A stretch of DNA of 64,000 bases from Desmodesmus armatus. Lineage: Eukaryota > Chlorophyta > Chlorophyceae > Sphaeropleales > Scenedesmaceae. The number at the start of each line of letters is the position of its first letter. Position 1 is the stretch's first letter. Below are positions 38,414 to 55,700 of the stretch, piece by piece. The stretch covers positions 62,001-126,000 of the forward strand of contig VIIQ02000686.1 in the NCBI GenBank assembly GCA_007449985.2, written 5' to 3'. A program made the translations under genes and the position numbers. The notes below the pieces were generated by a model. The model saw nothing but the letters and a program-made list of their open reading frames with translations, was not told where the DNA came from and did not search any database.

Positions 38414-38417
38414 CCAA
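38414..38417. repeat. Left target-site duplication CCAA
   Basis: CCAA immediately precedes the element's TGAC terminus and recurs at 52363-52366 immediately after its GTCA terminus. Four bp is within the usual 4-6 bp for DDE-integrase LTR elements. A match this short has about a 1 in 256 chance of occurring randomly. Confidence 0.6.
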
Positions 38418-39005
38418 TGACACGAGCAGCAGCTACACTGACCGATTCCTGCTGAGTGAGCAGTAATCCTCACAGGAAGGTTATGCTGTGTACAAGGCTA
38501 TACAACACATGCCTTAGCAGAATCAGTGTGATAGTTGACTAATCATGTTGAGTCAACAAGGACTCTGGGTGATATCAGATCATGCCAGATACTGCTGCGT
38601 GGCAGTGCTATTATTGGTGGTTAAGTGCTTGGGAGTTGTATGCGATGAGTTTGGTGCTGCGATGCACAGGATCACTGGCGGGTTCAGGGTTTACCGCCTG
38701 CAGTGCCGATTCCTTTGTGCCGCTGTGGTGCTCTGTGCGTCGCACTCGGCTTTGACAGTGCTTGGTGTAAACTTCTGGCAGTGTTTCCCGAGTACTCGCT
38801 CATTTGAATCCCCAATTCAGAGCGCACAGGTGCAGCAACCAGCCCCAGCAGCGACCTGTGGTCGAACCGGGTGCCTGAACATCACTCATACATTCATACA
38901 GCGCATCAACACTTTGCAAAGGACTACAAGTGAGTATCTGCTACCCTCAGAGCAGCCAGCTGGCTGCGAAGCATCATTGCTGCAAGCTTTAGGCAGCAAA
39001 CCACA
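38418..39005 (+). repeat. Terminal repeat A1 (left, 588 bp)
   Basis: Begins TGACACGAGC and ends AAACCACA. It is identical by inspection to A2 at 51726-52313. It should contain the element's promoter and transcript start. A 168-codon open frame inside it (from 38545) ends just beyond the repeat and has no recognisable domain. Unlike A2, A1 is not followed by the 50-bp B block; it runs directly into AGCCGAGTGCC. Confidence 0.92.
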
Positions 39006-39178
39006 AGCCGAGTGCCACATTTGCATTTATACACTTGTAGTAGCTCGCTAGTGCTCAACTGCGGGCGCTAGTGAAAGGGCCACTAGTGGGTGGTGGGCGC
39101 TGCCACGTGCCTGGCTACTGGGGGCATCGCGGCGCGTCTAGTAAGCATTAAGGTGTTTTAAATACTATTATAGTTTAC
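39006..39178 (+). other. Leader between A1 and ORF1
   Basis: Short leader where a tRNA primer-binding site is expected. No canonical site directly abuts A1. A TGGTGGGCGCTGCCACG stretch near 39088 begins with TGG and could pair with a tRNA 3' end, but it is about 80 bp away, so the priming site is unresolved. Confidence 0.4.
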
Positions 39179-42100
39179 TTGCGTGGGTTTTTGGGAAGAT
39201 CCACTGGTGCATTTCAGAGCTGGCCCATTTCCAGGCTGGCTTCTTCAGCGGGCAGGCGTGGACAGCAGCCATTTCCAACGTCTGGATCGCTTTCGGAGCA
39301 GTTCCAATCGGTGGTTCGGCAAGCTGTTGGTCAAGTGCGTGCGTCGGAGGAAGCAGGTGGCGCTGACAACCAGGAGAATTTGGGCTCTGGACTGATCAGC
39401 TACTCTGGTGACCAGGATCAGCACATTGGCGAGCAGCAGGAGGACAGCACTCTTGTTTTCACCAATCCACTCTTCGAGCAGGCCACCAGCAGCATGGCTG
39501 GCCTTGGCAGTCTGTCTTTTGGGGGCAAGCTGGACTCTGGAAGCAGCAGCAGCAACTCCATGATACCAAAGCTATGGTCTGGACAGCCTGGAGTGGATTC
39601 CTTCGGAGAATGGCAGCGTGCTGTCAGGTGGAACCAGGGCCAAAAGCGCAATGCAGCCATGGACAAGAAGCTGGACAAGCACTCTGGTGAAGAGATTGCC
39701 GAGATTGCCCAGTTGACTGTCATACGCTCCGATGGTGCCAAAGCAGTGGAGCAGGCTGGGCAGGTCTTGGAGAAACATGTCAGGGCTGCTGACCAGGGCT
39801 GGTATCCTCCACAGGAGCTGGAAGCAGCTGCTCTGGAGTTTGTGCGCAAGCGTCACCCCAACAGTGACTTGGCAGAGCAGACGCTGGCAGCATTGATCAA
39901 GGAGAGGTATGAGAAAGTACACATTGCTGCGGTTGCCAAGGGCTGGGCACTTGAGGACAGTGTTGGGCTGGAGCAGGCGCTGACAGCAAACTCTTCGCCA
40001 CTTGTGCAGCAGCAGGACTCAACTGGCAACAGCAGCGGCGGTGGCGGCGGCGGCCTGCCTCCTGCAACAACAGATCCTATGCAAACTGCTATGCTGGGCT
40101 TCTTCAAAACGCTCAGTGACAGGCTGGTCAAGAGCACGCAGGACAATAAATACTTCATGACTGTGGGGATGAGGAAGTGGAGCCCTCACAGCTGTGTCAT
40201 GGAGCTTTTCTGGTGTATGATGGACGCAGCATACGGAGTGGCCAGCAGCAAGGAGCAGGCTGAGTTCTACCAGCTGCAGAGTGAGGGTTCCCAGGGCAGC
40301 AGGCAGGTGCAGGAGTTTGCGCAGCGCGTGGCAGTGCTGTATGAGAGTGTCAAGACACTGGGCATTGTGCCAGCAGGTGCAGACATTACCACCTTCTGCA
40401 AGGGTCTCAGCAATGCCAGCAGCAGGCAGTTTGCACGGCAGCGCAAGGAGGAGTACTATGCGTCCAACAGAACTCACATTGCGCTGGAATCACTAGCTGA
40501 CCAAGTTCAGCAATTCGAGAAGAACCTCCACCAGGATGGCGTGCTGGCGCAGCAGGCATTGATTATGGTGGGCAACAGCAGTGTGGGAGCTGGAAGCAGC
40601 AAGAACGCCCGGCGCGCAGGTGAGGAGAGTACACTGGTGCAGACGCTGCTGCGTTCTCGCCGGGAGAATGAGGCTACACAGCAGTACCTCAGCAAGATGG
40701 GTGCGCGTGAGAAGCTGCTCATCACCAAGGGCTTTGACATGGCGGAGATCGACCCCAAGGACCCCTCTGCTGTCTGCCTGGACTGTCCTGCAACAAAGCG
40801 GCCACACCTGAACCAAGACTGCAAGGGCAGGCGCATGGCGGGGCTGGCTATGGCAGCAGCGCAGGAGGGCAGCACTGCCAACAAAAGCAGCAGCAGCATT
40901 GGCAGCAGCGCTGGAACCTTGGACGTCAACACGCTGGCAATCATGGTGCAGCAGGCAGTGGCTATGGCAGCAGCAGGAGCAGGCGCAGCACCGGCAGGAC
41001 TGGGGCAAGGGCTGCCAAGGGCTTACAACAAGCCAGAAAACAGCAGGGGTAACAGGGGCTATGGTGGCAGCAACGGCAGGCAGCAGCAGTACGCAGGGCC
41101 ACCTGGCTTGGGTGTTGGGTCAGCAGTTATGGCGTGTGTCATCTGTGGCTTTGCCAAGGGCCACTCAGATGGTGTCTGCTATATGGACAAGCCAGAGCTG
41201 GCTCCAGAGAAGTGGGAGGGCCCCACGGAGCGTGCACCTGAGCAGGGGATGGTGCACTACATCTCCCGCTGCATGCAGCAGAAGCTGAAGCCACGGCTGG
41301 GGCGTTGCAAGGAGCTGCTGCGGAGGATGATGCAGAGCAACAAGCTGCCGCCAGCTATGCAGCAGTTCATTGGACAGCACACACAGCAGCAGCGGTACAT
41401 GAACATGGCTTATGGCGCAGCAGCAGAGCCGTATGGGGCTTATGCAGCTTACATGACAGGCATGGGGTCTGCTGGTTCCAGCTACTGGCCCATGGGCGGC
41501 TCGGCAATGCAGCAGCCAATGGCAGGGCTGCCACCCTCTCACACACCGCTGGCTATCACTGGTGCAGTTGGCGACAGCACCGGTGAACAAGCAGCAATGA
41601 TGGTGCTGCCGGATGCAGGCGGGTATGTGAGTGAGGAGCAGCAGCAGGAAACAATGCACTTTGGGCCCTCTTTCTGTTATGTGGGCTTAGCAGACTGGCA
41701 GCAGGATCTGGCAGGTGGGCTCTTTGACTCAACGGGACATGAGTATGCACTGGTTGGGACACGTGCACAGGCAGGAGCTGGTGCAGTGCAGCAGGGCAGG
41801 GTTGTCAGGCAGCCTGTGCCCAAGGGCTTCCTACCACCCTCAGCTCTTCCTACAGACCTGAATGCCATGCGTTCCATGCCACGCATCACCAATGCACTGG
41901 TTGCTGGCTTAGGAGAGCTGGACGGCACCAGCAGGGGGCTACTGCACACGCTGCTTGACATTCAGCGGTTTGTGGCGAGCAGGGTATCTGCTTTTGGAGA
42001 CCTTCTGGGTGTGCAGGAGGCTGGTGGAGCACATGGTAGCAGCAGTGCACAGCAGGGAGGGCAGCAGGCTCTGCAGGAGGCAACAGCAGCAAAGGGTACT

Positions 42101-43921
42101 GCCAGCATGGTGTCCAGCAGCAGTTCTGGGCGCTGTGGCCCTGTTGCAGCAGCGGCGGCAAGCAGCCGCAGCCTCCTGGAGTCAGTCATGCTGCAGTATG
42201 GCTTCAAGCCAGTGGCAATCGATTACACCCTACGCCAGTCAATGCCTGTGACGCTGGACTTCCTGGTGGGCACGAACAAACAGGAAGGATTGACACTAAC
42301 AACCCCGGATGGGCGTGATGTGCTAGTAGATATGGCGTTCCAGGACTCAGGTGCCACACTGCTGCTGTTCACTGAGGTGGCTTGTGGCGAGTGGGGTACT
42401 TACATCTTCAGAACAAATCAGGTGCCGTCTGTCAAGGGCATTGATGGGCTGCCGTCCAAGAAGATTATCGGCAGGACAGGACCGCTGGTTCTCACACTTG
42501 CCAAGGGACACCCACTGGCAGCAGTCCTGCCCGTTCCGTGTGCTTGGGTGCTGGAGGGAGACGCGGGTGGCATGTTTAAGGTGTGCTTGGACAAGAAGAC
42601 ACTGCTGCCGGTGTTTGGGTATGTGGATCCAGCCCTCAACATGCTATGCTTCCGTCCCAAGGCAGCACAGGGCAGGCTTGACATTATACACGGCATTCCC
42701 GTGCGTGGCTATGTCAAGAACGGCAACAGCAGCATCAGCAGTGGCAACATGGCGGCTGCCACCATCTGGGAGGAGGACAGCAGGGACACAGAGGAGCTTG
42801 AGGGCTCAGCAGCAGCAGTGCCGGGCATCAACTACAGGCCGTTTACTGCAGAGGAGAACACTCTAGCCAATGCAGAGCTCGAACGGCTGCTTCAGGCAGG
42901 AGTTATCACAGAACTGGATGCTGGGCCATTTGAAGTGAACGATCGCTGGTACTTGGACCACCTGGGCCTGAATGGTGGTGTGCCACAGCAGGTGCAAGAG
43001 GACTTGGACAGCAGCAGCTCCACTGGGTCAACCGCTATGCCTGAGCTGTGCACAGGCAGTGACAGCGACAGTCTCCCAGAGCTGGTGGATGCTTACAACC
43101 CAGTGACTGCTGACATCGAGTATTTCAGCCCTCATGGCAGTGCAGCAGATGCTTGGCTGCAACAACAAACTGGGGGTGAGCACAACAAGCGCAGGCGCCG
43201 GCGTGGGCGCGGCCGCAAGGGCAGGGGGCGGCAGCAGCAGCAGCAACAGCAGGAGCAGGAGCAGGAGCAGGCAGAAGCACAGCAGCCACTGGAGGAGCCA
43301 GCAGGCAAGCTATGGGGCTTTGACTGGTCCAAGGCTGCTGGTCAGCTGCTGCCGGGCATCAGCTGGATCACGACACACATGGTGCTGCTGCTGCTAGGCA
43401 TGTTCCACTTCTTTGTGGACTTGCCGCTGAGGAAGTACCCCTCAAAGATCATGCGTGGATTGGTCAGCATGGCGGGAGCAGCAGTGCGCCCAGGCAACCC
43501 CATGCGCGCAAGGGAGTATAATGTGGCAGAACCTGTGCCCACTAACAACCTTGGCGACACACGGCGCGCACGCAAGCGTCGGCACAACAGAGGGCCCAGG
43601 CCAGGCCCTGGCTTGCAACCGACGGCAGAGCAGGACGCACCGCAAACAAAGGTCTCTGTGGTCGCCACAGTGCGTCACTCTGGCAAGGTCATCACTGCGC
43701 GCACAGTGCTGATGTGCCTACTCTGTTTCTTCTCAGTGCTGTGCTCCACAGCAGCAATGCAGGTTACCAACAGCATTGGGGCAGCAGCCACTGGATCAGC
43801 ACTGCAAGCTGGCTACTTTCCCCTGCCACATGGCGTCCCACCACACCTCAACATGCACTTGCTGCAGCAGGAGCTTGCCAACCTGCATTGCAGTAGGTTT
43901 CGCTGCTACAGCAGAGCATGA
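39179..43921 (+). CDS. Retroelement ORF1: Gag-like, retropepsin, and a long insert
   Basis: Open for 1580 codons. The 5' limit is a TTG; the first in-frame ATG is at 39494, so an upstream spliced or non-AUG start is possible. The N-terminal 500 residues are helical Gag-like. Two zinc-knuckle-like Cys/His clusters follow: CLDCPATKRPHLNQDC and CVICGFAKGHSDGVC. The aspartic protease active site is DSGATLLL, with Asp at 42344-42346 (residue 1056). Past the protease a short piece, AELERLLQAGVITEL (about 42870-42915), echoes the start of reverse transcriptase. Then comes an Arg-rich stretch (about 43180-43230), a Gln/Glu tract and two hydrophobic segments (about 43367-43430 and 43699-43760) long enough to span a membrane. 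ORF2 lies in the +1 frame and overlaps the last 146 bp, so frameshifting or splicing must join them. Confidence 0.8.
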   Translation: MRGFLGRSTGAFQSWPISRLASSAGRRGQQPFPTSGSLSEQFQSVVRQAVGQVRASEEAGGADNQENLGSGLISYSGDQDQHIGEQQEDSTLVFTNPLFEQATSSMAGLGSLSFGGKLDSGSSSSNSMIPKLWSGQPGVDSFGEWQRAVRWNQGQKRNAAMDKKLDKHSGEEIAEIAQLTVIRSDGAKAVEQAGQVLEKHVRAADQGWYPPQELEAAALEFVRKRHPNSDLAEQTLAALIKERYEKVHIAAVAKGWALEDSVGLEQALTANSSPLVQQQDSTGNSSGGGGGGLPPATTDPMQTAMLGFFKTLSDRLVKSTQDNKYFMTVGMRKWSPHSCVMELFWCMMDAAYGVASSKEQAEFYQLQSEGSQGSRQVQEFAQRVAVLYESVKTLGIVPAGADITTFCKGLSNASSRQFARQRKEEYYASNRTHIALESLADQVQQFEKNLHQDGVLAQQALIMVGNSSVGAGSSKNARRAGEESTLVQTLLRSRRENEATQQYLSKMGAREKLLITKGFDMAEIDPKDPSAVCLDCPATKRPHLNQDCKGRRMAGLAMAAAQEGSTANKSSSSIGSSAGTLDVNTLAIMVQQAVAMAAAGAGAAPAGLGQGLPRAYNKPENSRGNRGYGGSNGRQQQYAGPPGLGVGSAVMACVICGFAKGHSDGVCYMDKPELAPEKWEGPTERAPEQGMVHYISRCMQQKLKPRLGRCKELLRRMMQSNKLPPAMQQFIGQHTQQQRYMNMAYGAAAEPYGAYAAYMTGMGSAGSSYWPMGGSAMQQPMAGLPPSHTPLAITGAVGDSTGEQAAMMVLPDAGGYVSEEQQQETMHFGPSFCYVGLADWQQDLAGGLFDSTGHEYALVGTRAQAGAGAVQQGRVVRQPVPKGFLPPSALPTDLNAMRSMPRITNALVAGLGELDGTSRGLLHTLLDIQRFVASRVSAFGDLLGVQEAGGAHGSSSAQQGGQQALQEATAAKGTASMVSSSSSGRCGPVAAAAASSRSLLESVMLQYGFKPVAIDYTLRQSMPVTLDFLVGTNKQEGLTLTTPDGRDVLVDMAFQDSGATLLLFTEVACGEWGTYIFRTNQVPSVKGIDGLPSKKIIGRTGPLVLTLAKGHPLAAVLPVPCAWVLEGDAGGMFKVCLDKKTLLPVFGYVDPALNMLCFRPKAAQGRLDIIHGIPVRGYVKNGNSSISSGNMAAATIWEEDSRDTEELEGSAAAVPGINYRPFTAEENTLANAELERLLQAGVITELDAGPFEVNDRWYLDHLGLNGGVPQQVQEDLDSSSSTGSTAMPELCTGSDSDSLPELVDAYNPVTADIEYFSPHGSAADAWLQQQTGGEHNKRRRRRGRGRKGRGRQQQQQQQEQEQEQAEAQQPLEEPAGKLWGFDWSKAAGQLLPGISWITTHMVLLLLGMFHFFVDLPLRKYPSKIMRGLVSMAGAAVRPGNPMRAREYNVAEPVPTNNLGDTRRARKRRHNRGPRPGPGLQPTAEQDAPQTKVSVVATVRHSGKVITARTVLMCLLCFFSVLCSTAAMQVTNSIGAAATGSALQAGYFPLPHGVPPHLNMHLLQQELANLHCSRFRCYSRA

Positions 43922-46900
43922 TTCTGGCCAAGTGAAGTGGTACCAGGCCGACCCAGCAGCTCTGGACCAACTTGGGCCCGATGGCGCAACAGAAGATGTG
44001 CATGACGCCAGATGGACAGTGCACGATGAGGGCAAATGGATCTTGGGCAACCACCCAGATGCATCGCCTGCACAAATGGACCAGCTGGTGCAGATGCTGT
44101 TGGAGGAGCGAGGGGCATTTGCTTACAGTCTGCAGGACTTGCCTGGCTACACAGGGGACGTAGCTGACTTCAAACTGATCGATCCCTCCAAACGTATGTG
44201 GAGCGCACCCAGACGCTACACAGAAGAGGAGGTGAAGTTTGCCAAGGAGAAGGTGCAGGAGATGCTGGATGCGGGCATCGTAAAAGAAATTCCAACGACC
44301 TGTCCGCATGCTTCAGCTATCACGTTGCCTATGAAGCGAGCACCCGACGGTAGCTGGACCGACAAGCGGTTCTGCATCGACCTGCGCAACGTCAACGGCA
44401 ACACAGTGGTGGACAGTTACGGCCTGCCACTACCGGAAGAACTGTTTAGGCGAATTAGGGGGCACAAATTCTTGGTCAAGGCGGACTTTAGAGCGGGCTT
44501 TTGGCAGCTCAACCTGAGCGAAGAGGCGCAGCAGCACGTGGCCTTCCACGCACCCGACAGTGGCAAGCGACTGACCTACACGCGGCTGTGTTTTGGTCAC
44601 GTGAACGCCACGGCAATTTTCCAGCGGGTTATGGAGAAGGAGCTGGCAGCAGCTGGTTTGTCTCACTGTGCGGCGCCGTTCGTCGATGACGTTATCATGT
44701 GGTGCGACACCTGGGAGGACATGGTGACCAACTTCAGAACACTTCTACAGCATCTCAAGACAGTGGGCTTGCGCCTGCACCCTGCCAAGACAATCGTGGG
44801 TGCAGACTGCTTGCCTTACCTGGGTCACCTGGTATCAGCCAAGGAGTGCAAGCCGGAGCCAGCCAAGATTGCAGGCATCAAGGCACTGCAGCCACCCACC
44901 AGCCTCAAGCGCCTGCAGGCCCACCTTGGCCTGTTTAATTACTACAGGTGCTATGTGCCCAACTTTGCCATCATTGCCAGGCCGCTTTACAAGCTTATGG
45001 AGAAGGGTGCGCAGTACATCTGGAGTGATGACTGTAACCAGGCGTATGAGGGGCTTCGAACGGCGCTGTGCAAGAAGGGTTTGGGGCTCAGGCAGCCTGT
45101 GGATGGGCGCAGTTTTCATCTGTATGTCGACTGGAGCAACACGGGCATTGCAGCTGTGCTGAATCAGGAGGCGGAGGATGGGACGGAGTACATGGTGGCC
45201 TGTGCCAGCAGGTCCCTCAATGCAGCTGAGCAGAACTATCCCGCCTGGAAAGGCGAGATGATGGCAGCAGTGTGGGGCGTCAAAATGTACAGGCCGTACT
45301 TGCACTCCAGGGAGTTCTATCTCCACAGCGACCACCGGGCGCTGTTATGGCTGCTGACACAGAAGACACCAGTGGGGCAGCAGATGCGTTGGATTCTGGC
45401 ACTTCAGGAGTACCGCTTCTCACTGGTGCACAGGGCAGGCAAGTCAAACCCAGCTGATGTGCCTAGCAGGGAAGCCAGTAGCTGTGTGGCAGACACCACT
45501 GGAGCCAGGTTGGACACGGAGCTGCATGACTGGGTGCCCACTGTGCTTCTGCCAGACTGCAAAACAACGGACCCACTGGTCTACACACATGACAGTCTGG
45601 CACTGGAGCTGGGCATTGGCAGCAAATCAACAGCAGCAGCTGGAGTGGCAGCAATGGCTTATGAGGAAACACCTGGTGACTGCCCAATCCTTCACAGCCC
45701 AGCAGCAGCGCTGGCGGCAGAACCAGCAGACAGCTACAGTCATGAACAGCTGGAGCACGAGGCGTTGTGTTGTCTACTGTGCAGCAACGAGTCTGCAGTG
45801 GACACATTCGCCCCAACCGCCGACTCATTGCTGGGGGGGGAGACAGCAGGACAACTTTTTGCTGACGATGGCTGCTGCGTGGACACACAACACCCAGCAG
45901 TAGCTTGGCGGCAGCATGACCTACAGCAGGCAGCATCGGCGTGGGTCACATTGGCAGGGCTACAACAGCCCCAACCGGACAGCTTCCAGCCAGGAGTGTA
46001 CACAGGTGCATTGGACCCCTGGGGCGTAAGGGAGACACAAGGGCTGTGCACGGCTACTGTGGCAGACACGTTCTTCCCGGCAGCGCTGCAGCAGGGCATC
46101 GTGCTTTATGAGCCGTTTGGTGGCATCTGCGCAGGGCTGGAGATGGTGCTCAGGAGTGGCATCACAGTCAAACAGTACCTGTACAGCGACATCAACCCCA
46201 TGGCACAGCGGGCGGCGTTACACAGGATCAGGGTGCTGCAAAGCATGTATCCCAAGCAGCTACCGGAGGATGCTTTGGCTGGCAGTTTCAGCATTCTTCC
46301 CATGGATGTGAGGCACATCACCACACAGCAGCTCAGCAAGGCTGTCAGCGAGGCACCAGTCAAGCAATGGCTGGTAGTAGGAGGCTGGCCCTGTCAAGAC
46401 TTCTCTGCAGCAGGCAAGTCACAGGGGCTTCGGGGTGATCGGGCTCAACTGCTGTTTGACCTGGTCAGGGTAGTGGGAGCGTTGCAACAGCTACTCCCAC
46501 ACCAGCCCCCAGCCTACCTGGTGGAGAATGTGCTCTTGCAGCAGCACAGGCTGAGCAGCATCAGTCAGCATGACTTCAATAAAATCAAGGCGTGCCTAGG
46601 GTTACCTGTGGTGCTGGACGCAGCACAGTTTGGCAGCCTTGCACATCGGGCGCGCAACTTCTGGTCCAACCTGGTTGGGCCCAGTCAACTGCGAGCAGCT
46701 TTGGCATTTGTCAAGAGGCCACCCGCACGCAGCGTACAGCTTGCCTTGGGACCTGGCAGGACCGCGCAACCTGTCAACCGACCAGACGCTGCTCCTCTCT
46801 ACCCCTGCAACGCACCAGGGCAGCCTCGCGCAGCCTGGCCTACCTTGGTCAGCAGCGCACGCTCCTACGCCTTCAGGCCTGGCCAGCCTGGCAGTGTTTT

Positions 46901-49526
46901 GGACACAACGGTGCCTGCTGTAGTCAAGTGGGGCGAGCCAACAGCAGAGGAGAGAGAGGTAGCTCTGGGCTATCTTCCAGGCAGCACAGCAGCAGCAGGC
47001 CTCACACAAGCGCAGCGGTGTGCGTTGCTCGGTGAAAGCATGGATGCCAACACTTTGCAGGTGCTCATGGCCATCGCCAAGGCTTGGTTCCTGCGGGGCC
47101 TGCCTACCTCTACTGACTTGGCGACACGTGCATTCAGCGCACACGAAGGGGAACTGGCGCAGGAGTGGCCTGGCAGAGAGGCAACTGCAACCCCACATGG
47201 CTATCAGCAGCAGCTAGCCATGACAGCTGGCTACCAGGAGAACACTACGGCTACGAGCCAAGGTGACATCTGGGCCGACGATAAGACCCTGGAGTACATC
47301 AGAACAGGGCAACTCCCACAAGACCTGGCAGCCAGCCAGGCAGCACGTATCAAGCGACGTGCACGCTCATACTACTTCAAGGACCAGCAGCTGATCAGGA
47401 GGATGCCAGATGGCACCGACAGGCTGGTACCTCCACCACAGGCGCGTGCTGGTCTCATACGGCAGCAACACGAGATGTGTGGGCACTTTGGCAGGCGGCG
47501 CACCTCAGCCATGCTACTCAGTAAGCACTGGTGGTATGGGTTACTGGCGGACGTTGCAACAGTGCTGTCACGCTGCGAGCACTGCAGCAGGGTGCATGCC
47601 AGCTTCACCGCCAAGCCGGAGGAGCTGCGCCCCATTCCAATCAGCAGCATGGGTTTCAGGTGGCACGTGGACACAGCTGGGCCACTACCCAAGAGTGCAA
47701 AGGGCAACAAGTATGTGCTGGTGTGTGTTGAGGCATTCAGCAAGTACCTGGTGGTGGTGCCGATGGAAAACGACAAGGCGGAGACCACTGCATACCACTT
47801 CTTGCACGGTGTATTGGCACACTTTGCAGCACCAGGGCAGGTGGTGACAGACTCAGGGACAGAGTTTGAGGGCGAGTTTGCCAAGCTCCTGGAGGATGCG
47901 CTCATCGATCATGCCATCATCAGTGCAGACCACCCTCAGGCCAATGGTCAGGCAGAGAAGGCTGTGCACATCGTCAAGCGGGCGCTTACCAAAATGGCAG
48001 TGGCAAGGCACAGTGTCAAGCAGTGGGATGAGGACTTGGCATGGCTGGCACTGGGCTACCGCTGCTCTCCACAGGCCAGCACAGGCCACAGCCCGTACGA
48101 ACTCATGTATGCACGTCCACCGGTCATTCCACCTGCAGTGAAGGAGCTTGTCAGCACACCCCTGGACATCAGTGCTGAGGCGGCTGTCAAGGACCTACTG
48201 CAGCGTAAGGAGCGGCTAAAGCAGCAGGTGCCCATTGCGCTGGAGAACCTGGCGATTGCACAGCACAGGGATCAGCGCCGTTACCTGCAGCTGCGTGCGC
48301 CTGACTACAAGCCACGCGTTCACAGGTTTATGGTGGGTGACTACGTCTACACTCAGCAGCTTAACCGGGCAAGCAAGCTACAGCCCAGGGCCAAACCCCT
48401 CATTCTGCGAGTTCTGGAGGTGCGGGACTCTGGGGTACTGCACCTGCAGGGGCGCTGTGGCCGGACCATTGAGGTGCACATGTCTCACTGTGCACCCTGC
48501 CACTTGCCTGATATCGACGGCGGCATCGACCCACTGCTGGTGGACAACACAGATGATGTGGTCTGTGAGGTATGCAGCACCAGCGACAACGGGGCCGAGC
48601 TCATGCTGTGTGACGTGTGCAACAGCGGATACCATACCTACTGCTTGCAACCACCACTCAGCAGTGTGCCTGACGGTGTGTGGCTGTGCCCGGAGTGTGT
48701 GGACGCTGGCTACACAGAACAGGATGCTGCTGGCAGGGAGCAGCAGCGGCAGCAGCTACAGGAGCGGGAGGCCAGGCCAAACATATTCCCCGGCGCGCAA
48801 ATGAAGCGCAGGGACGAAGCAGCACATGCGCTGCATGGCCGACTGGTGCTGAAGGCGTTCACGGATCCAGCCACCGGGAAAGGCAGGAAGTACTGGGGCA
48901 GGATCTACTTCAAGGATGCTGAGTCACGCCCATACTACTTCCGAGTGGTGTACGAAGATGGGGACTCTCACCACGCCACCATGGCAGGCATCAAGCGCTA
49001 CCTGCAGCCGGAGGATGCAGTGCTGCCACCTGGGGCCAGCATTCCTACACCAGAGTCACTGGCAGCAGCAGTGGCGTACGCACGACAGCTGGTCAGCAGG
49101 GTTGCTGGCGGTTCAGTAGCTGTTCCTTCCACAAGGGTCTCACCGGCAGATGTGCAGTTGCTGCAGCTTACAGTGCAGATGTCCCTGGTTCAAGCCCTGG
49201 TGGACCCACTAACACTCAACACCCAGTGGCAGCAGGTTTTTGCTGGGCGACCGTTCACTGTGGGCTGCGGGCCTGTACAGCACGGCGCTACAGCCATCAT
49301 CATTACACCTACAGCACCCTTTGTGCTTCATGCAGTTTTCACAGCACTGCAAATGAGGCCATTGGTGGTGCTCTGTTACGTGCCTTCACTGGCGTTTCCA
49401 GCTGACATCCACCCTCTGTTCAGTGCACTCAAGCAGCAACGGCGAGCAGCAGCATTCAGGGGCAAGAATGGCTGCTGGCTGGTGCTCAGTAGGCAAGGCA
49501 TAGACATCGACAACTGGCTGCATTGA
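43776..49526 (+). CDS. Retroelement pol: RT, RNase H, C5 DNA methyltransferase, integrase, PHD, Tudor-like
   Basis: Open for 1916 codons and without an early ATG, so probably made as an extension of ORF1 by +1 shift or splicing. Reverse transcriptase spans residues 140-395 (active site FVDD, 302-305). RNase H spans 445-566 (D452, E494, D519, D561). A cytosine-5 methyltransferase spans 770-1105: motif I YEPFGGICAGLE, motif IV GGWPCQDFS with catalytic Cys 873, motif VI YLVENV, motif VIII RARNF, motif X LLGESMD. The HHCC finger uses H1232, H1237, C1267 and C1270; the integrase triad is D1299, D1359, E1394; an integrase C-terminal fold covers about 1510-1575. A C4HC3 PHD finger spans 1597-1641, then a Tudor-like module to about 1745 with VVYEDGD. 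The last 150 residues are unrecognised. All expected catalytic residues are present. Confidence 0.93.
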   Translation: MGQQPLDQHCKLATFPCHMASHHTSTCTCCSRSLPTCIAVGFAATAEHDSGQVKWYQADPAALDQLGPDGATEDVHDARWTVHDEGKWILGNHPDASPAQMDQLVQMLLEERGAFAYSLQDLPGYTGDVADFKLIDPSKRMWSAPRRYTEEEVKFAKEKVQEMLDAGIVKEIPTTCPHASAITLPMKRAPDGSWTDKRFCIDLRNVNGNTVVDSYGLPLPEELFRRIRGHKFLVKADFRAGFWQLNLSEEAQQHVAFHAPDSGKRLTYTRLCFGHVNATAIFQRVMEKELAAAGLSHCAAPFVDDVIMWCDTWEDMVTNFRTLLQHLKTVGLRLHPAKTIVGADCLPYLGHLVSAKECKPEPAKIAGIKALQPPTSLKRLQAHLGLFNYYRCYVPNFAIIARPLYKLMEKGAQYIWSDDCNQAYEGLRTALCKKGLGLRQPVDGRSFHLYVDWSNTGIAAVLNQEAEDGTEYMVACASRSLNAAEQNYPAWKGEMMAAVWGVKMYRPYLHSREFYLHSDHRALLWLLTQKTPVGQQMRWILALQEYRFSLVHRAGKSNPADVPSREASSCVADTTGARLDTELHDWVPTVLLPDCKTTDPLVYTHDSLALELGIGSKSTAAAGVAAMAYEETPGDCPILHSPAAALAAEPADSYSHEQLEHEALCCLLCSNESAVDTFAPTADSLLGGETAGQLFADDGCCVDTQHPAVAWRQHDLQQAASAWVTLAGLQQPQPDSFQPGVYTGALDPWGVRETQGLCTATVADTFFPAALQQGIVLYEPFGGICAGLEMVLRSGITVKQYLYSDINPMAQRAALHRIRVLQSMYPKQLPEDALAGSFSILPMDVRHITTQQLSKAVSEAPVKQWLVVGGWPCQDFSAAGKSQGLRGDRAQLLFDLVRVVGALQQLLPHQPPAYLVENVLLQQHRLSSISQHDFNKIKACLGLPVVLDAAQFGSLAHRARNFWSNLVGPSQLRAALAFVKRPPARSVQLALGPGRTAQPVNRPDAAPLYPCNAPGQPRAAWPTLVSSARSYAFRPGQPGSVLDTTVPAVVKWGEPTAEEREVALGYLPGSTAAAGLTQAQRCALLGESMDANTLQVLMAIAKAWFLRGLPTSTDLATRAFSAHEGELAQEWPGREATATPHGYQQQLAMTAGYQENTTATSQGDIWADDKTLEYIRTGQLPQDLAASQAARIKRRARSYYFKDQQLIRRMPDGTDRLVPPPQARAGLIRQQHEMCGHFGRRRTSAMLLSKHWWYGLLADVATVLSRCEHCSRVHASFTAKPEELRPIPISSMGFRWHVDTAGPLPKSAKGNKYVLVCVEAFSKYLVVVPMENDKAETTAYHFLHGVLAHFAAPGQVVTDSGTEFEGEFAKLLEDALIDHAIISADHPQANGQAEKAVHIVKRALTKMAVARHSVKQWDEDLAWLALGYRCSPQASTGHSPYELMYARPPVIPPAVKELVSTPLDISAEAAVKDLLQRKERLKQQVPIALENLAIAQHRDQRRYLQLRAPDYKPRVHRFMVGDYVYTQQLNRASKLQPRAKPLILRVLEVRDSGVLHLQGRCGRTIEVHMSHCAPCHLPDIDGGIDPLLVDNTDDVVCEVCSTSDNGAELMLCDVCNSGYHTYCLQPPLSSVPDGVWLCPECVDAGYTEQDAAGREQQRQQLQEREARPNIFPGAQMKRRDEAAHALHGRLVLKAFTDPATGKGRKYWGRIYFKDAESRPYYFRVVYEDGDSHHATMAGIKRYLQPEDAVLPPGASIPTPESLAAAVAYARQLVSRVAGGSVAVPSTRVSPADVQLLQLTVQMSLVQALVDPLTLNTQWQQVFAGRPFTVGCGPVQHGATAIIITPTAPFVLHAVFTALQMRPLVVLCYVPSLAFPADIHPLFSALKQQRRAAAFRGKNGCWLVLSRQGIDIDNWLH
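46083..47090 (+). other. Cytosine-5 DNA methyltransferase domain inside pol
   Basis: About 336 residues between RNase H and the integrase zinc finger. Motifs are in linear order: SAM-binding YEPFGGICAG, YSDIN, catalytic PCQ, ENV, RARNF and terminal GESMD. The target-recognition region (about residues 965-1050) is Pro/Ala-rich. The stretch GLRGDRAQLLFDLVRVV after the PCQ motif most resembles DRM/DNMT3-type de novo enzymes, which is a judgement by eye. It should transfer methyl from SAM to cytosine C5 if folded. Confidence 0.88.
48564..49010 (+). other. PHD finger and Tudor-like reader region
   Basis: PHD: C1597-x2-C1600-x11-C1612-x2-C1615-x4-H1620-x2-C1623-x14-C1638-x2-C1641, with GVWLCPEC typical of histone-H3-tail binders. 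After a Gln/Arg linker the region 48840-49010 reads LVLKAF ... YWGRIYFKD ... YYFRVVYEDGDSHH, like Tudor/Agenet-type modules of plant chromatin proteins. It takes the place occupied by a chromodomain in chromoviruses, so integration targeting is the likely role. Confidence 0.82.
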
Positions 49527-49722
49527 GCACTGGATGCTCGGTTCATTATCTCGGTCCGGTTTCGCTAAGACGGCGCAGTAGTAGCTTAGCACCAAGGGGC
49601 TTCAAGGAAGGGGGGGCATGATAGTGCATACTGCAGGCTGACTAAGCAGGTGATTAGCTGACACGCTCAACCTTCTGTCCTGCACTGCTAACCTCTCCAC
49701 TGTGCAGGGCGTGTTCTCATTT
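49527..49722 (+). other. pol-ORF3 spacer with 3' splice site
   Basis: Contains CTAAC (49688-49692), a pyrimidine-rich run and CTGTGCAG|G ending at 49707, which together make a good branch point and 3' splice site 15 nt before the ORF3 ATG. This suggests ORF3 is translated from a spliced RNA. Confidence 0.55.
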
Positions 49723-50937
49723 ATGCCCGACACAGCACCTGGTGCCAGCAGTGTAATAGAGGAGCAGCTGGACTACGGGGAGGACTCCTGGGAGGAGTTG
49801 CAGGAGCAGCCAGTCAGTGAGGAAGTGGCACTGCTAGGATCTGGAGAGGAGGAGTTGCCTCAGCAGCCAGACAGTGAGGGTGCAGAGCAGCCGGACTTTG
49901 GGGGCGAGGGCTTGCCTGAGGAGCCCATGCAGCAGGACATAGCAGCTCACATGGACCTGCCTGCAGCAGTAGCGGAGGACCCAGCCGGCCAACTGGTCAC
50001 GAGGGTACGCGCAATCTACCATGGGCTTCGGCGGGACAGGGATGAGCTGAGGGGTATTGACAGGAGCTTGTGGCAGCTTACACTAGAGCAGCAGCGATGG
50101 GTGGAGCGCGAAGCAGCAATGGACGTGCTTGGCATCACCCGTGTTGCATGTCACCTTGGCGGCTATGCCAACGGGATGTCAGAGGACCTCACAGTTGCGG
50201 CAAGGCGGGCAAAGGAGGCAGACCAGCACATGCTGCAGAATGCAGATACAGACTTGGAGGCAGAAGCAGCACGGGCAGCTGCAGCAAGGGAGGCTGCAGC
50301 AAGGGAGGCTGCAGCAAGGGAGGCTGCAGCAGCTGAAGCACTTGCAAAGGAGGCAGCAGCGAAGGCAAGGGCTGCAGAAGGGAACCGCGCAGTAGAGCCG
50401 GCAGCAAACCAGGAGGCACCTGCAGCAGTAGGCTTTGATTGGAGTCGCGTGAAACTACCCTTAGAGTTTGTGCCTCCGCAGCGCGGAAGCAGCAGCAGCG
50501 GCAAGGGTAATGATGGGGAGCATACGCAGGAGCGCAGCGGGAGCCGCGGCCGCAGCCCCAATGCCGACAACAGGGAGCGCAAGCCCAAACGCAGCAGGAG
50601 CCGCAGCAAGGGCCGCGGCAAGGACGACAACCAGGACCGTGGTGGTCGCAGCAGCAGCAAGTACGACATGGACGGGCCTCCCAAACCCGCAGACGTACCT
50701 GAGTACGAGCTCCCTCCTTTGGGCTTTACCCGCAACAACTGCAGGGTGGGCAAGGACGGTTATGGATTAGCAGGAGTTATGGATTACCAGGGCACGTGGT
50801 TCCCAGTGGCAGCACACGACCCAGCGCACAACCCGGAGAAGAACCCAAAACTTAACGACACATGCCCAATCTGCTTCCTGCGAACAGCATACAAGCAGGA
50901 TCGCCTGGCATACCGTTCCAACACCCGGCGCAGGTAA
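49723..50937 (+). CDS. Retroelement ORF3: acidic / Ala-rich coiled coil / SR-rich protein
   Basis: 404 residues from the ATG at 49723. The first 90 residues are strongly acidic (runs of Glu, Asp, Gln). A helical middle contains perfect repeats of REAAA (about 50270-50340), predicted coiled coil or single alpha helix. An Arg/Ser-rich tract (RKPKRSRSRSKGRGKDD, about 50580-50630) looks like a nuclear or RNA-binding SR segment. A conserved-looking C-terminal block contains PPLGFTRNNCRVGKDGYGLA and CPIC. No signal peptide or membrane segment is present, so despite its env-like position it is not an envelope protein by appearance. Gag-like, nucleocapsid-like or silencing-related roles are all possible. 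No family recognised. Confidence 0.7.
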   Translation: MPDTAPGASSVIEEQLDYGEDSWEELQEQPVSEEVALLGSGEEELPQQPDSEGAEQPDFGGEGLPEEPMQQDIAAHMDLPAAVAEDPAGQLVTRVRAIYHGLRRDRDELRGIDRSLWQLTLEQQRWVEREAAMDVLGITRVACHLGGYANGMSEDLTVAARRAKEADQHMLQNADTDLEAEAARAAAAREAAAREAAAREAAAAEALAKEAAAKARAAEGNRAVEPAANQEAPAAVGFDWSRVKLPLEFVPPQRGSSSSGKGNDGEHTQERSGSRGRSPNADNRERKPKRSRSRSKGRGKDDNQDRGGRSSSKYDMDGPPKPADVPEYELPPLGFTRNNCRVGKDGYGLAGVMDYQGTWFPVAAHDPAHNPEKNPKLNDTCPICFLRTAYKQDRLAYRSNTRRR

Positions 50938-51673
50938 TGATATGGCAGAGACAGCAGGTGCTGCCGCAGCAATTAGCAGCAGCAGCAGCAATTGCTGGGC
51001 CGTCTGGATTGGCCTTTGGTAGCGACAACAGCTTTTGGCAGCAGTGGTTTAAGGCCGTCTGGAGTGGCCTCTGCTGGAGCGATGGTTTGTGCCAGCTGGG
51101 GGTGCCCAGACTGGCAAGCAGCTTTGCAGGAGGTTGGGAGCAGCAGTTGATTTATTGGACATTGTGGATAGTAGCTTTGCCTTTCACATGCGAACGATGT
51201 GGGGGCATCTGTCCTGCTTGCATGTTGGTTGGGATTTAGCAGCAGTGAGCGCAAAGGGCCACTGTTTGTGCTTGTCAAGCTCAGTGAAATATGCTTCCTG
51301 AGTAGTTAAGTGAGTGCTGCATGACTCACTTGTGTGCAGCAGATCCAGCAGTGGCTGGGTTTGTTTGTCAATTATGTGTGTGTGTTTTATTGACTGTGCA
51401 ATGCACAAACATCACATGCGTTGTAGTGTGTGTGCCCAGCGTCTGGATGTGCCTAGATGCCGTGGTGAGAAAAGACAAAAAACAAAAATGTCTGTTGACT
51501 TGTGTTGTGTGGTCACAGCAGCATTCTCTGCAAGCAATGTGCAGTTTTCCCCGTGCGTTGCGCATCAGCTGTGTGCTATCAGCTGTTGCATGTTGCTTTT
51601 GGATTGGGTTGTTTGTAGCTGCTCAATGTGAGTACTGCTGCTGTGTAGTGTTACCCCAGCAGCAGTGGGGGGG
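50938..51673 (+). other. Element 3' internal region
   Basis: Non-coding stretch between ORF3 and the terminal blocks. It ends in a G-rich purine tract (GTGGGGGGGAG, about 51665-51675) that has the look of a polypurine tract, but it abuts B1 rather than A2. Confidence 0.5.
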
Positions 51674-51723
51674 AGTGTACACCCCTAGCAGCAATCTGAG
51701 CAGGTCAGTGTTCTACTGCGTCA
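51674..51723 (+). repeat. Terminal block B1 (50 bp)
   Basis: Begins AGTGTACACCCCTAGCAGCA and ends CTGCGTCA. It is identical to B2 at 52313-52362. It lies directly before A2 with two extra bases (GC) between, and directly after the purine tract. No copy follows A1. Confidence 0.93.
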
Positions 51724-51725
51724 GC

Positions 51726-52313
51726 TGACACGAGCAGCAGCTACACTGACCGATTCCTGCTGAGTGAGCAGTAATCCTCACAGGAAGGTTATGCTGTGTA
51801 CAAGGCTATACAACACATGCCTTAGCAGAATCAGTGTGATAGTTGACTAATCATGTTGAGTCAACAAGGACTCTGGGTGATATCAGATCATGCCAGATAC
51901 TGCTGCGTGGCAGTGCTATTATTGGTGGTTAAGTGCTTGGGAGTTGTATGCGATGAGTTTGGTGCTGCGATGCACAGGATCACTGGCGGGTTCAGGGTTT
52001 ACCGCCTGCAGTGCCGATTCCTTTGTGCCGCTGTGGTGCTCTGTGCGTCGCACTCGGCTTTGACAGTGCTTGGTGTAAACTTCTGGCAGTGTTTCCCGAG
52101 TACTCGCTCATTTGAATCCCCAATTCAGAGCGCACAGGTGCAGCAACCAGCCCCAGCAGCGACCTGTGGTCGAACCGGGTGCCTGAACATCACTCATACA
52201 TTCATACAGCGCATCAACACTTTGCAAAGGACTACAAGTGAGTATCTGCTACCCTCAGAGCAGCCAGCTGGCTGCGAAGCATCATTGCTGCAAGCTTTAG
52301 GCAGCAAACCACA
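51726..52313 (+). repeat. Terminal repeat A2 (right, 588 bp)
   Basis: Identical by inspection to A1. Its last base is also the first base of B2. A2+B2 (637 bp, TGAC...GTCA) would be a standard-looking 3' LTR, except that the 5' end has only A. Confidence 0.92.
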
Positions 52314-52362
52314 GTGTACACCCCTAGCAGCAATCTGAGCAGGTCAGTGTTCTACTGCGTCA
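52313..52362 (+). repeat. Terminal block B2 (50 bp), right end of element
   Basis: Second copy of the 50-bp block. It ends GCGTCA immediately before CCAA (52363-52366), the right copy of the presumed 4-bp target duplication. Confidence 0.9.
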
Positions 52363-52783
52363 CCAAGGCCACCTAGGCCTATGGAGACGACCCACGGCAG
52401 CTTCAGCCTCTGCGATCTTATTACAACGACCCTCAGAAGCTCATACAAGGCTGAAACATCACAAGCCCTGCCACTGCCTCCAACTTCAAGCAATGCACAA
52501 AATGGCATTTTCGTTTTTTGAATTGGATTGAAAAGTGATCCAAGGCGCGAAAGCAGGCTCCCTCAGTCTCAAGCTTCCTAAGATACGCTGCTTTGCTACG
52601 TCTTTGAAAATGTCTGCACGTCACATCTGATCAGCAACACAACCTGAGCCACCAAACCAACCTCCACTGAAGTTTGCCAATCCTTTCCGTGGCGATCTGA
52701 ACCGTGCGTGTGTGTCATAGTTGTGTGAAATATCAGGTCTGGATCTGCAACGACTGAACCACCAGCTGCTCTGCGTGCTCTGA
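52363..52783. other. Right flank of retroelement / F-box copy 1 promoter
   Basis: Starts with the CCAA duplication (52363-52366) and runs to the first ATG of F-box copy 1. The promoter of that gene should be here. Nothing else was recognised. Confidence 0.5.
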
Positions 52784-55700
52784 ATGGCTGATCATAAGGT
52801 AGGTATCTGCTGGTTGGCAACTGCTCTTTTCAGCACAAGCGCTTTGCTGATTTTAAGCTTATTGCAAATCAAGGTCGCTACACACATATGCTGTGCATGC
52901 CACACTTGCAGGGTCCACTGGGCTGCAACACACTGCCCCCACATGTTTTGGCTCACATCCTGTCCTACGTGCCCTTGGAGGTGCGCATGCGAGACTGCGC
53001 ATGCGTAAACAGCAAATGGCACACAGCAGCACTGCAGGCCTCACACAGCATGGCTGTGAAGGGCCTCACCACTGTGCAAGCCGCAGGACTGGCAGCATGG
53101 CTGCAGACGTACAGCACAGCAGCACATGTGTCCCGCCTTGACTTGCACGCCAGCAACACCAGCACCACCGATGACAGTGCCTCAGCAGCAGTAGGGCACG
53201 CCCTGCCAGCAGTGAAGCAATTGCAGTCCCTGCGCCTGCAAGGAGGCTGGCGGGCAGCTGCTGTCACGCAGCTCAGCAGCATGTGCAAGCTTCAGGAGCT
53301 TGACCTGAACTGCCACAGCAGCGTGCTGCGCGCTGCCATTGCAGCGCTCCCAACTGGGCTCACGAGCCTGGGCTTTGGCAGCAGCGATAACTTGTGGTAC
53401 TTGCAGCTCGCGGGGGAGTTACATCCCGACAACAGGGACGCAACTGCAGAGCTTACAGCCCAGACCTGCATGCCCAAGCTGCAGAAGCTTGAGCTGCGAG
53501 ACCCCTCTGTCTGCATCAGCTTCCGTACACTTGGGGGCTGCCAGAGCTGCGCACGTGCATCGTCAGTTTTGCCAGCATAGCAGCACAAGGCAAGGACCCC
53601 ACACGGCTGTCAGCGCTGAGTGCACTCAGCTCCCTGCAGCACCTGGACCTGGCAGGGTGGCTTGCCCCTACGTGTGATGGCAAGCTGCCTGTGCTGGACA
53701 CATCAGACTGCGCCGCACTCACAGCCTCCACCCAGCTCACCTTCCTCAGCCTTCACAAGTGGCAGCTGCAGCCAGAGCTGTGCAGTGTGGTGTTCCCGCC
53801 AAAACGGCAGCTGCCGCTGCTGCGGGAGCTGCACCTGGGGCCATGTTTCCTGCAGACACCTGCAGCAACAGCCAGGGTGGTCAGCGCAGCACCAAGTCTG
53901 ACCGTGCTGAAGGTTGGGTGCAGCGACAGCGCAGACTTCTATTCAGAAGAGCACTATCTGCAGGAGGTGAGTGTGTTGAGGGTTCCTGTTCAACATCCAA
54001 ACCCAGCGTCCTGCATGACTGCATGATTGCCTCTCAGTTTGGCCTGATGTGTGACAAGCTGCATATGGCTGTGTGTATTCAGATGTACAACACGACTGGT
54101 TTTTGTCCAATTAGGGTTGTGAGGCTGCAGAGGTAGGCACCCCATGCCATGGTGGCTCATTTGTTCTGGCTGTAAATGCATGCTGTTGCCGGCTGCCTGG
54201 CTGTTTGCAGGTTTCACACAGTGTGAGTTTGGATGGCGTGCAGCAGCTGCAGGGACTGGAGCGTGTTGCGCTGGAGGGTGTGAGGGTGGAGGACAGCTGC
54301 ATATGGGATGTGCTAGCGCGCATGACACAGCTAACAGGCAAGTCACACTTGTCGTCTCGCCACCAATAATTCATTGGGCTGGGCAGACAGGGGCTTATGC
54401 AGGCTGTCAGCATTGCAAGGGGTAGGCTGCAGCTATCTCGAGGTAATGGATCGTACAGGTATAATGTCCTGCAGCACACCAGCACGCCGTGTATCCGGCA
54501 GCTGCAGGCTTGCCCAACGTCCTGTGCAAGACATGCAGTCTAGGATAATGCTACTGTACAATCAAGCATGTGCAATGCACACCGCGGAGACGGCTGTTTG
54601 CCCACGAACATGCATGGGTCTGTTTGTGTATGTTGCCATGTGTGCTGCCTACAGAGCTGCTCATCCAGCAGGTCAGCATTCCCTGCCTGCCTGGCCTCCT
54701 GCAACTGACAACCCTCAAGAATCTGAGCTCACTTTCCGTCGATGTCGTTTTCAATGATGAAGACGAAGGATTTTGTGACTCATCATGTCGCTTGGTGAGT
54801 GGTGTACCCAGAAGGTGCCCAGAAGGAAGGAGTGATGTATTCTTCAGCTGTGAGCTTCAAATGCAGGCCAAGCTTGAGCCTTGTACAGCATTTGGGGGGA
54901 GGGGACAGGGGATTTGCCTCATTTCATCACGTTGCCAGTGTACTCGCCATGCCAAAACTTGCCAGCAACAGCCTCTGCAGGTTTTGTTTACTCCTCGGTC
55001 GGCCGTGAACCATTGCGCTGATTCTTGGTACAGCTACGCTGTGATTTTCACGATGTGTGGACGTACAACAGCCGGGCCGGCAACACAGCTATTGGTGTTG
55101 CGCCATCCTCAAAAGCCTCCTCGCACTGCAGCGACGAGTGTCACCTGACTGCGTAGCTGACATTGCTGTGCGACTGTGTGTGTGCTGCCTGACCGCTGTC
55201 TGCCATGCAACAGAGCGGGACAGACACACCCGTATTCCTGCAGCTGCCTGCAGCGGTGGTCAAGTGCGCGGCGGAGGTGTTTCGCATGGCTACAAATGAA
55301 GACGTGCGTGCAGCCATGCCCCTGCTGCTGGAGGCAGCACAGGCGCTGTGCCCGGCAGCCCTTGAGCTGTACTGGTCGTCTGAGCAGCAGTGGCAAGGTG
55401 TGCAGGATTCCAGCGAAGAGCAGAGGTTGTCCCAGTTGGAATTCGTTGTCTCAACCCAGCCTTTGCTTGATCAGCTGGAGCAGTCACATGTGCGGGGGCT
55501 GCAGCTGGTGAACACCAACCTGGCTGCAGCAGTGGCAGCAGGGTGTGACCTGCACAAGCCGCTGCATCAGCAGCAGCAATCGCAGGTGGAGGCGTGGTTG
55601 GGTAGTACGCCTCTTGCCGTTGCGGAGGGGGCCAGTGACCCCTTGATGCAGCCATGGGATGAAGTCTGGGCGGCGATAAGGGGTGAAGCGCAGCAGCTGG

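Follow-up and report, generated by a model that had tools for sequence, protein, structure and literature searches.

Methylation is usually a weapon of the host against transposons, and the locus described here raises the question of why an invader should methylate DNA itself, as a clade of transposons is found to keep an apparently intact DNMT3-like enzyme across lineages. Here, we analysed a stretch of 64,000 nucleotides from the green alga Desmodesmus armatus (the window, meaning this whole stretch), which includes a full-length gypsy-type element with such an enzyme, and we lean towards the reading that the enzyme's target is the cDNA of the element itself or its new insertions. The question becomes testable in this host because the genome holds both DNMT-bearing and DNMT-free gypsy elements, and relatives in which the domain has moved or the active site is altered bear on it too.

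The preliminary description of this locus had placed a C5-cytosine methyltransferase in the pol of a Ty3/gypsy element, after RNase H and before integrase, and both the order of the Pfam domains and a structure model agree with this (Table 1). The domain is a stop-free translation of 336 residues (pol residues 770-1105), and the five C5-methyltransferase motifs that had been named were all recovered in the same stretch and order and in frame within the 1916-codon ORF, namely PFGGICAG (46113-46136), GGWPCQDFS (46380-46406), YLVENV (46515-46532), RARNFW (46647-46664) and GESMD (47031-47045). The match to Pfam DNA_methylase (PF00145), which had been proposed as a check, was significant at 44.4 bits (E 1.9e-11) for the domain alone and 40.9 bits for the whole pol, the cut-off being 22, and RVT_1, RNase H, Integrase_H2C2, rve and PHD in that frame also exceed their cut-offs. 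Profile comparison placed DNMT3 (E 9e-15) nearer to the domain than DNMT1/CMT, bacterial enzymes or the tRNA enzyme DNMT2 (0.02), and with the AlphaFold2 model of the domain (mean pLDDT 94.8) all 50 matches listed by Foldseek against the PDB were DNMT3. A DNMT3-like identity is thus supported by profile and structure comparisons, both of which place DNMT3 closest; all catalytic residues are in place in the window's domain, and its predicted fold is closest to DNMT3. Of the earlier suggestion that the domain leans toward DRM/DNMT3, the DNMT3 part stands and the DRM part does not, because the motifs run unpermuted (I-IV-VI-VIII-X) and the rearranged order of plant DRM is absent.

Table 1 Features of the element, with positions counted from the first letter of the window.
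Feature	Position	Strand	Remark
Target-site duplication CCAA, left copy (4 bp)	38414..38417	.	matches 52363-52366
Terminal repeat A, left copy (588 bp, TGACAC at start)	38418..39005	+	100% identity to 51726-52313
Putative self-primer segment in A, predicted RNA 5' end region	38739..38752	+	13/14 complementary to 39005-39018
Putative primer-binding site, A/internal boundary	39005..39018	+	13/14 complementary to 38739-38752
Gag-like ORF1 (frame opens 39152, first ATG 39494)	39179..43921	+	overlaps pol
pol ORF, 1916 codons from TTG (frame opens 43713, first ATG 43830)	43776..49526	+	
Reverse transcriptase RVT_1	44379..44828	+	Pfam E 4.9e-16
RNase H	45024..45413	+	Pfam RT_RNaseH 3.4e-30
DNMT3-like C5-cytosine methyltransferase domain	46083..47090	+	Pfam DNA_methylase 2.2e-10 in whole pol
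Catalytic cysteine codon, pol residue 873 (Cys873)	46392..46394	+	Cys in 143/143 related domains
Integrase zinc-binding domain H2C2	47430..47597	+	Pfam Integrase_H2C2 1e-10
Integrase core rve	47658..47927	+	Pfam 3.8e-9
PHD finger	48564..48698	+	Pfam 9.8e-12
ORF3, 411 codons	49702..50937	+	open frame
Purine tract GTGGGGGGGAG, putative plus-strand primer site	51665..51675	+	GTGGGGGGG at equivalent place in C78 and C589 families
Repeat B, internal copy (50 bp)	51674..51723	+	100% identity to 52313-52362
10-bp palindrome GTCAGCTGAC at B|GC|A junction	51720..51729	.	counterparts GTCAGCTGTC (C78), GACAGCTGTC (C589)
Terminal repeat A, right copy	51726..52313	+	100% identity to 38418-39005
Repeat B, right-end copy (GCGTCA at its end)	52313..52362	+	100% identity to 51674-51723
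Target-site duplication CCAA, right copy	52363..52366	.	matches 38414-38417

The element spans 38418-52362 (13,945 bp), reads TGAC...GTCA from end to end with CCAA on either side, and contains three reading frames. The name gag-like for ORF1 follows from its position, because the frame has no Pfam match above cut-off, and ORF3 has none at E<=1. The open frames of gag and pol share 209 nt (43713-43921), pol being in the +1 frame, an arrangement suggestive of frameshifting; in one related protein (P0043) the gag-like and pol parts lie in a single frame. Behind the PHD finger (model pLDDT 88.9), Tudor (PF21743) gives a weak match that stays below cut-off (0.0015). The neighbours of the finger in the PDB, by sequence and model, include CHD4, CHD5, KMT2C/D, KDM5, BAZ2A/B, BHC80, ATXR5 and UHRF1, among others, several of them solved with unmodified H3, and these names suggest that the finger may read H3K4me0, as does the ADD domain of DNMT3, a reader of unmodified H3K4. 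To the right of the element, the window also holds a tandem direct duplication (52921-55485 and 57404-59999, about 4.5 kb apart), whose matching blocks are 77-94% identical and whose ORFs look F-box/leucine-rich by eye.

The ends of the element are split repeats in the layout A-coding-B-GC-A-B at full length, and we regard this anatomy as practically certain. Reverse transcriptase, RNase H and DDE integrase in one frame, together with a short target duplication of the integrase type, make it a Ty3/gypsy element, and the direct repeats are split as in DIRS elements (A-coding-B-A-B). It cannot be filed as a canonical LTR retrotransposon, because it is not bounded by two identical simple LTRs: the left end is A, the right end is A-B, and B also precedes the right A. 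A DIRS element is ruled out as well, given the rve integrase, the target duplications, which DIRS elements are not known to have, and the finding of no Pfam match to a tyrosine recombinase at E<=1 across the three ORFs. Exact 4-bp target duplications flank four of the five copies that were read at both ends (CCAA in the window; CTGT, GGAC and TCCT among C13, C559 and C589), while the fifth (C645) is without one.

Two further families share this plan. In the C78 family, whose DNMT is 61% identical, the repeats are of other lengths (A 527 bp, B 194 bp) with an identical GC spacer, a duplication TTGT and the G-rich tract GTGGGGGGG immediately before B. The family at C589 has the order GTGGGGGGG, B, GC, A, its left end and second B not being found within the stretches read there. 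A genome search with its B-GC-A segment gave 52 rows (40 of 111 candidates scored), with 31 rows starting at query positions 49-51, where the predicted start of A is 51, and eight places at which a match to A is followed on the same strand by a match to B within 13 nt, one of them being B-A-B. At the junction, each of the three families has a palindrome, perfect or nearly so (GTCAGCTGAC, GTCAGCTGTC and GACAGCTGTC), and their A repeats have no mutual BLAST similarity at E 0.01. The end architecture is hence conserved across three families with dissimilar A repeats, the third of them partly read.

Searching the host assembly with the methyltransferase domain returned 94 rows, including 36 full-length copies at 99-100% identity, the window's own counted, and 16 of these 36 (again with the window's) lie in a 1937-aa open frame like that of the window. 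The preliminary description had conceded that its claim would fall if the domain were a chimera absent from other copies of the element, and these copies dispose of that concern. Further domain families occur in the assembly at about 83, 61, 57, 50 and 45% identity (44-62% among the diverged families), several of them in open frames of 1702-2629 aa. A comparison of 2.3-3.4 kb around the domain at 26 loci resolved 20 distinct copies, of which 19 were 99.5-100% identical to the window, a likeness that polishing of the assembly could inflate among repeats, and one (L040) was 80% identical. The window's copy family thus appears to have expanded recently.

Within the host genome, this clade of reverse transcriptases and the DNMT go together: of the matches with at least 41% identity, 66 of 68 have a DNMT within 5 kb downstream, the two misses being fragments, compared with none of 22 at 40% or less, where the 41% line was drawn post hoc, 11 of 101 rows were omitted as secondary pieces and 99 of 248 candidates were scored. 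The 22 DNMT-free places (29-40% identical; for example C251, C712, C9, C18 and C654:16231-17430) are a natural control and, because they are without a DNMT nearby, imply that gypsy elements can multiply in this host without the enzyme. Among 64 PF00145 matches no standalone host DNMT3 was noticed, and since the search went exon by exon its absence cannot be concluded. Intron-split host exons (L088 on C146 and L089 on C11) look DNMT1-type by eye.

The element has many relatives elsewhere. A protein search that used the domain in its Pol context as query matched at least 133 proteins, with 120 listed at 39-66% identity, and two overlapping profile searches found at least 73 and at least 80 proteins, about 8,000 candidates being scored in each search. 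Labelled sources include Scenedesmus sp. PABB004, Scenedesmus sp. NREL 46B-D3, Chromochloris zofingiensis (label Chrzof1), Chlamydomonas eustigma and Cymbomonas tetramitiformis, and one weak match, to a gypsy integrase from a fish, falls outside the DNMT clade. No protein labelled Klebsormidium nitens was among the matches listed in the three protein searches, in which few matches were labelled, and among viral contigs of IMG/VR 31 stretches fitted a pattern and none was a relative. The order RT-RH-DNMT-INT-PHD was present in 76 of 222 proteins (window included), most of the others being shorter pieces or fragments compatible with that order, and five of the 222, retrieved through integrase or RT, had no DNMT match. 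Judged from these sequences and their labels, the clade is broad, diverse and chlorophyte-linked, and new here.

Conservation was assessed on 143 domains, each covering more than 90% of the profile, that form 139 clusters at 95% identity and come from 217 proteins with any DNMT match. Without exception, these 143 have the catalytic Cys, Glu and Asn in motif VI, and the second Arg in motif VIII. In 52 of the 143 domains, the Pro of the PCQ in motif IV is replaced by Glu, with linked changes in motif VI and at one more site, and substrate or context may differ there; the window copy keeps the canonical PCQ. Motif I is altered in some relatives (P0109, P0210). In three unsaturated comparisons, dN/dS of the DNMT was 0.10, 0.10 and 0.18, and neighbouring linkers (0.19-0.34) lay above the DNMT in every pair with a value, among the six pairs in which other parts were read. 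The domain is not specially constrained within Pol, because in some pairs RNase H exceeds it and integrase lies below it.

The slot occupied in the window is not the only one. In three of the 222 proteins (P0116, P0210 and P0211) the DNMT precedes RT, and in P0049, P0118 and P0218 it closes an ORF without RT, two of these carrying a Pfam domain that we take to be an aspartic protease. A tree of 81 Pols, rooted with four gypsy proteins free of DNMT, has the three DNMT-before-RT proteins as its three earliest branches (supports 0.778, 0.903 and 0.99) and the arrangement between RNase H and integrase nested. The midpoint-rooted tree of 161 DNMT domains agrees in part, joining P0210 with P0211 (0.98) and P0116 with P0118 and P0218 (0.8); contrary to a simple story, P0049 falls within the derived clade. 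Across 74 Pols, DNMT and pol tree distances correlate with r 0.80 (best of 999 permutations 0.23), and the two trees have 22 strong splits in common (of 32 and 45), while six strong DNMT splits conflict with strong pol splits. The simplest reading of these weakly rooted trees would be that a single capture took place upstream of RT and that the domain afterwards moved to the slot between RNase H and integrase, with the slot before RT apparently the second and older one.

Two pieces of the element suggest how it replicates. The putative primer-binding site and the self-primer segment within A are complementary at 13 of 14 positions, a level that none of 2000 base shuffles and none of 164 other pieces of the window reached, for a pair that was spotted before the test and whose length of 14 nt was thus chosen afterwards; at the same boundary, the C78 family has 12 of 12 complementary nucleotides (0 of 1000 shuffles, two offsets). 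Tf1-type elements prime themselves through such a self-complementary site. By analogy, the RNA would fold back and prime its own reverse transcription, and plus-strand synthesis would begin at the G-rich tract, so that the reverse-transcribed repeat unit would be B-GC-A. In circular or end-joined cDNA, the integrase would cut the palindromic B|GC|A and leave CA-3' ends, yielding A-coding-B-GC-A-B with a 4-bp target duplication. Taken jointly, self-priming and integrase cutting at B|GC|A seem to us rather probable, and the conserved ends, with their split repeats and palindromic junction, suggest how an element with a DDE integrase may integrate from circles.

For the enzyme itself, we propose that, within the same Pol polyprotein, it would act at CpG on the element's cDNA or fresh insertion, and that the newcomer would thereby come to resemble the CpG-poor, presumably methylated host genome, while the PHD finger, which follows the integrase, would recognise unmodified H3K4 and direct insertion or methylation to silent chromatin. 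We hold the chances of CpG self-methylation and PHD steering, as a pair, to be evenly balanced. The whole window is CpG-poor (observed/expected 0.35-0.57 per 2 kb), so the host looks CpG-methylated, and a footprint of additional self-methylation was not found, the ratio of the element (0.47) being like that of its flanks (0.44 and 0.48). Between the window and an old copy, C->T changes are commoner at CpG (34/217) than elsewhere (102/1525), and in the reverse direction they are equally frequent (33/223 and 99/1520). CpG depletion therefore lends self-methylation no support, and nothing singles out the element. In yeast, SymbioDIRS-Dnmt3 domains methylate CpG, and the DNMT of KnitGypsy gave no methylation, a result that its authors call inconclusive in the main text (PMC5890265).

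The same CpG-poor window fits an enzyme that works in trans on the host genome, spreading CpG methylation broadly and blurring the silencing marks of the host. Dosage from 36 near-identical copies would make this possible, and such an effect is discussed for Symbiodinium in the main text of PMC5890265. The DNMT1-type host exons could nevertheless account for a genome-wide loss of CpG, and K. nitens has such elements yet, according to the same text, a land-plant-like methylome, and we find action in trans unlikely. The changes in motif IV (Pro to Glu in 52/143) and in motif I (P0109, P0210) are what would be expected if the domain were a non-catalytic part of Pol that binds nucleic acid or has a structural role; however, four residues invariant in 143/143 are beyond what binding alone requires, and the window copy has the canonical PCQ, which makes a non-catalytic role decidedly unlikely. 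RNA, either genomic or in the self-primed RNA-DNA hybrid, might instead be the substrate, with methylation of DNA incidental, and the place of the domain close to the hybrid, flanked by RNase H and integrase, would suit this, as would yeast DNA left unmethylated by the SymbioLINE and KnitGypsy DNMTs (PMC5890265, main text); we consider it an improbable explanation, the profile being far nearer to the DNA enzyme DNMT3 than to DNMT2 (9e-15 vs 0.02). Individual copies could be mis-assembled, because they are long, nearly identical and often near contig ends, and one of the five two-ended copies has no target duplication, but dozens of copies in several diverged families, with target duplications in different flanks, and the same domain order in Pol proteins from elsewhere (76/222, window included) lead us to reject an assembly chimera or single chance insertion as next to impossible. 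Self-methylation of cDNA or new insertions accordingly stays our preferred reading of the enzyme.

Some relatives (P0210, P0054, P0060 and others) end their Pol in a second methyltransferase-like tail with the motifs DPFAGSG ... ND ... TSPPF/TSPW. A profile of this tail matches 38 of 222 proteins, 20 of which built the profile, and six of seven tail members scanned match MethyltransfD12 weakly (best 1.6e-4, just under the cut-off). In PDB searches with the relatives' tail, one sequence gave nothing at E<=10 and the profile reached a best E of 0.037. The tail of the window's Pol as a decayed second methyltransferase found no backing, with no match to the profile and an hhalign probability of 1%. 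Dam-like enzymes are reported in DIRS elements in the main text of PMC5890265.

Combining these strands gives a tentative picture that we would sooner doubt than accept, in which an old, active green-algal gypsy clade would act as a mobile writer of the epigenome. Its members would prime themselves, form circular cDNA with the ends abutted across a palindromic site with a 2-nt spacer, be cut there by the integrase and be guided by the PHD finger to silent chromatin, where their own DNMT3 would write CpG methylation; the DNMT would have been captured once before RT and then moved, and part of the clade would have gained another methyltransferase, of the amino type, at the C-terminus of Pol. Some bacterial insertion sequences form circles with ends abutted across a short-spacer site.

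Several known systems share parts of this design. Tf1/sushi elements are self-priming gypsy elements in which the primer site adjoins the 5' repeat and is complementary to the element's own upstream transcript. The element in the window likewise has a putative primer site by the 5' repeat, with complementarity to an earlier stretch of its own predicted transcript; here this stretch lies within A, about 250 nt upstream, and the end repeats are split. As in chromoviruses, the gypsy elements with a chromodomain, a chromatin-reader module sits on Pol, but here a PHD finger, followed by the weak Tudor match, takes the place of the chromodomain, and a DNA methyltransferase is added. REM1 of Chlamydomonas is also a green-algal gypsy element and is said to have a PHD finger, in a separate reversed ORF, and it is not known to have a DNMT, whereas the element described here carries one and has its PHD finger inside Pol.

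Captured C5-methyltransferases are described in the main text of PMC5890265 for the retrotransposons SymbioDIRS-Dnmt3 and SymbioLINE-Dnmt, the former also combining a DNMT3 in Pol with split repeats. SymbioDIRS, however, relies on a tyrosine recombinase, and SymbioLINE belongs to the LINEs, while the present element combines a DDE integrase with target duplications of 4 bp. A more recent paper (PMC12344493, 2025) treats ChloroDNMTs and embedded DNMT3s, with no chlorophyte retrotransposon case in the part of its text used here, and puts DNMT3 in 'LTR Copia and DIRS' elements, citing PMC5890265, which says Gypsy. We found no report of a DNMT-bearing retrotransposon in a chlorophyte in the open PMC literature, subscription papers and preprints being outside this scope. 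The charophyte precedent mentioned in the preliminary description proved real, and closer than had been thought: KnitGypsy-Dnmt3 of Klebsormidium nitens (de Mendoza et al. 2018, PMC5890265) has, according to the main text, a DNMT3-related domain in the Pol ORF of a gypsy element, DIRS-like repeats, conserved key residues and purifying selection. It differs, compared by description, in its charophyte host and in that a PHD finger goes without mention in that main text, and its description there names no slot inside Pol, no self-priming and no palindrome. Because both odd features, DNMT3 in a gypsy Pol and DIRS-like repeats, are common to the two, the element is of the KnitGypsy-Dnmt3 kind, and common descent with the K. 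nitens element is an attractive possibility. The kind is thus already known, with KnitGypsy-Dnmt3 as the nearest precedent, and what is new is the chlorophyte-linked clade, the second slot before RT, the conserved end architecture and the second methyltransferase-like tail in some relatives.
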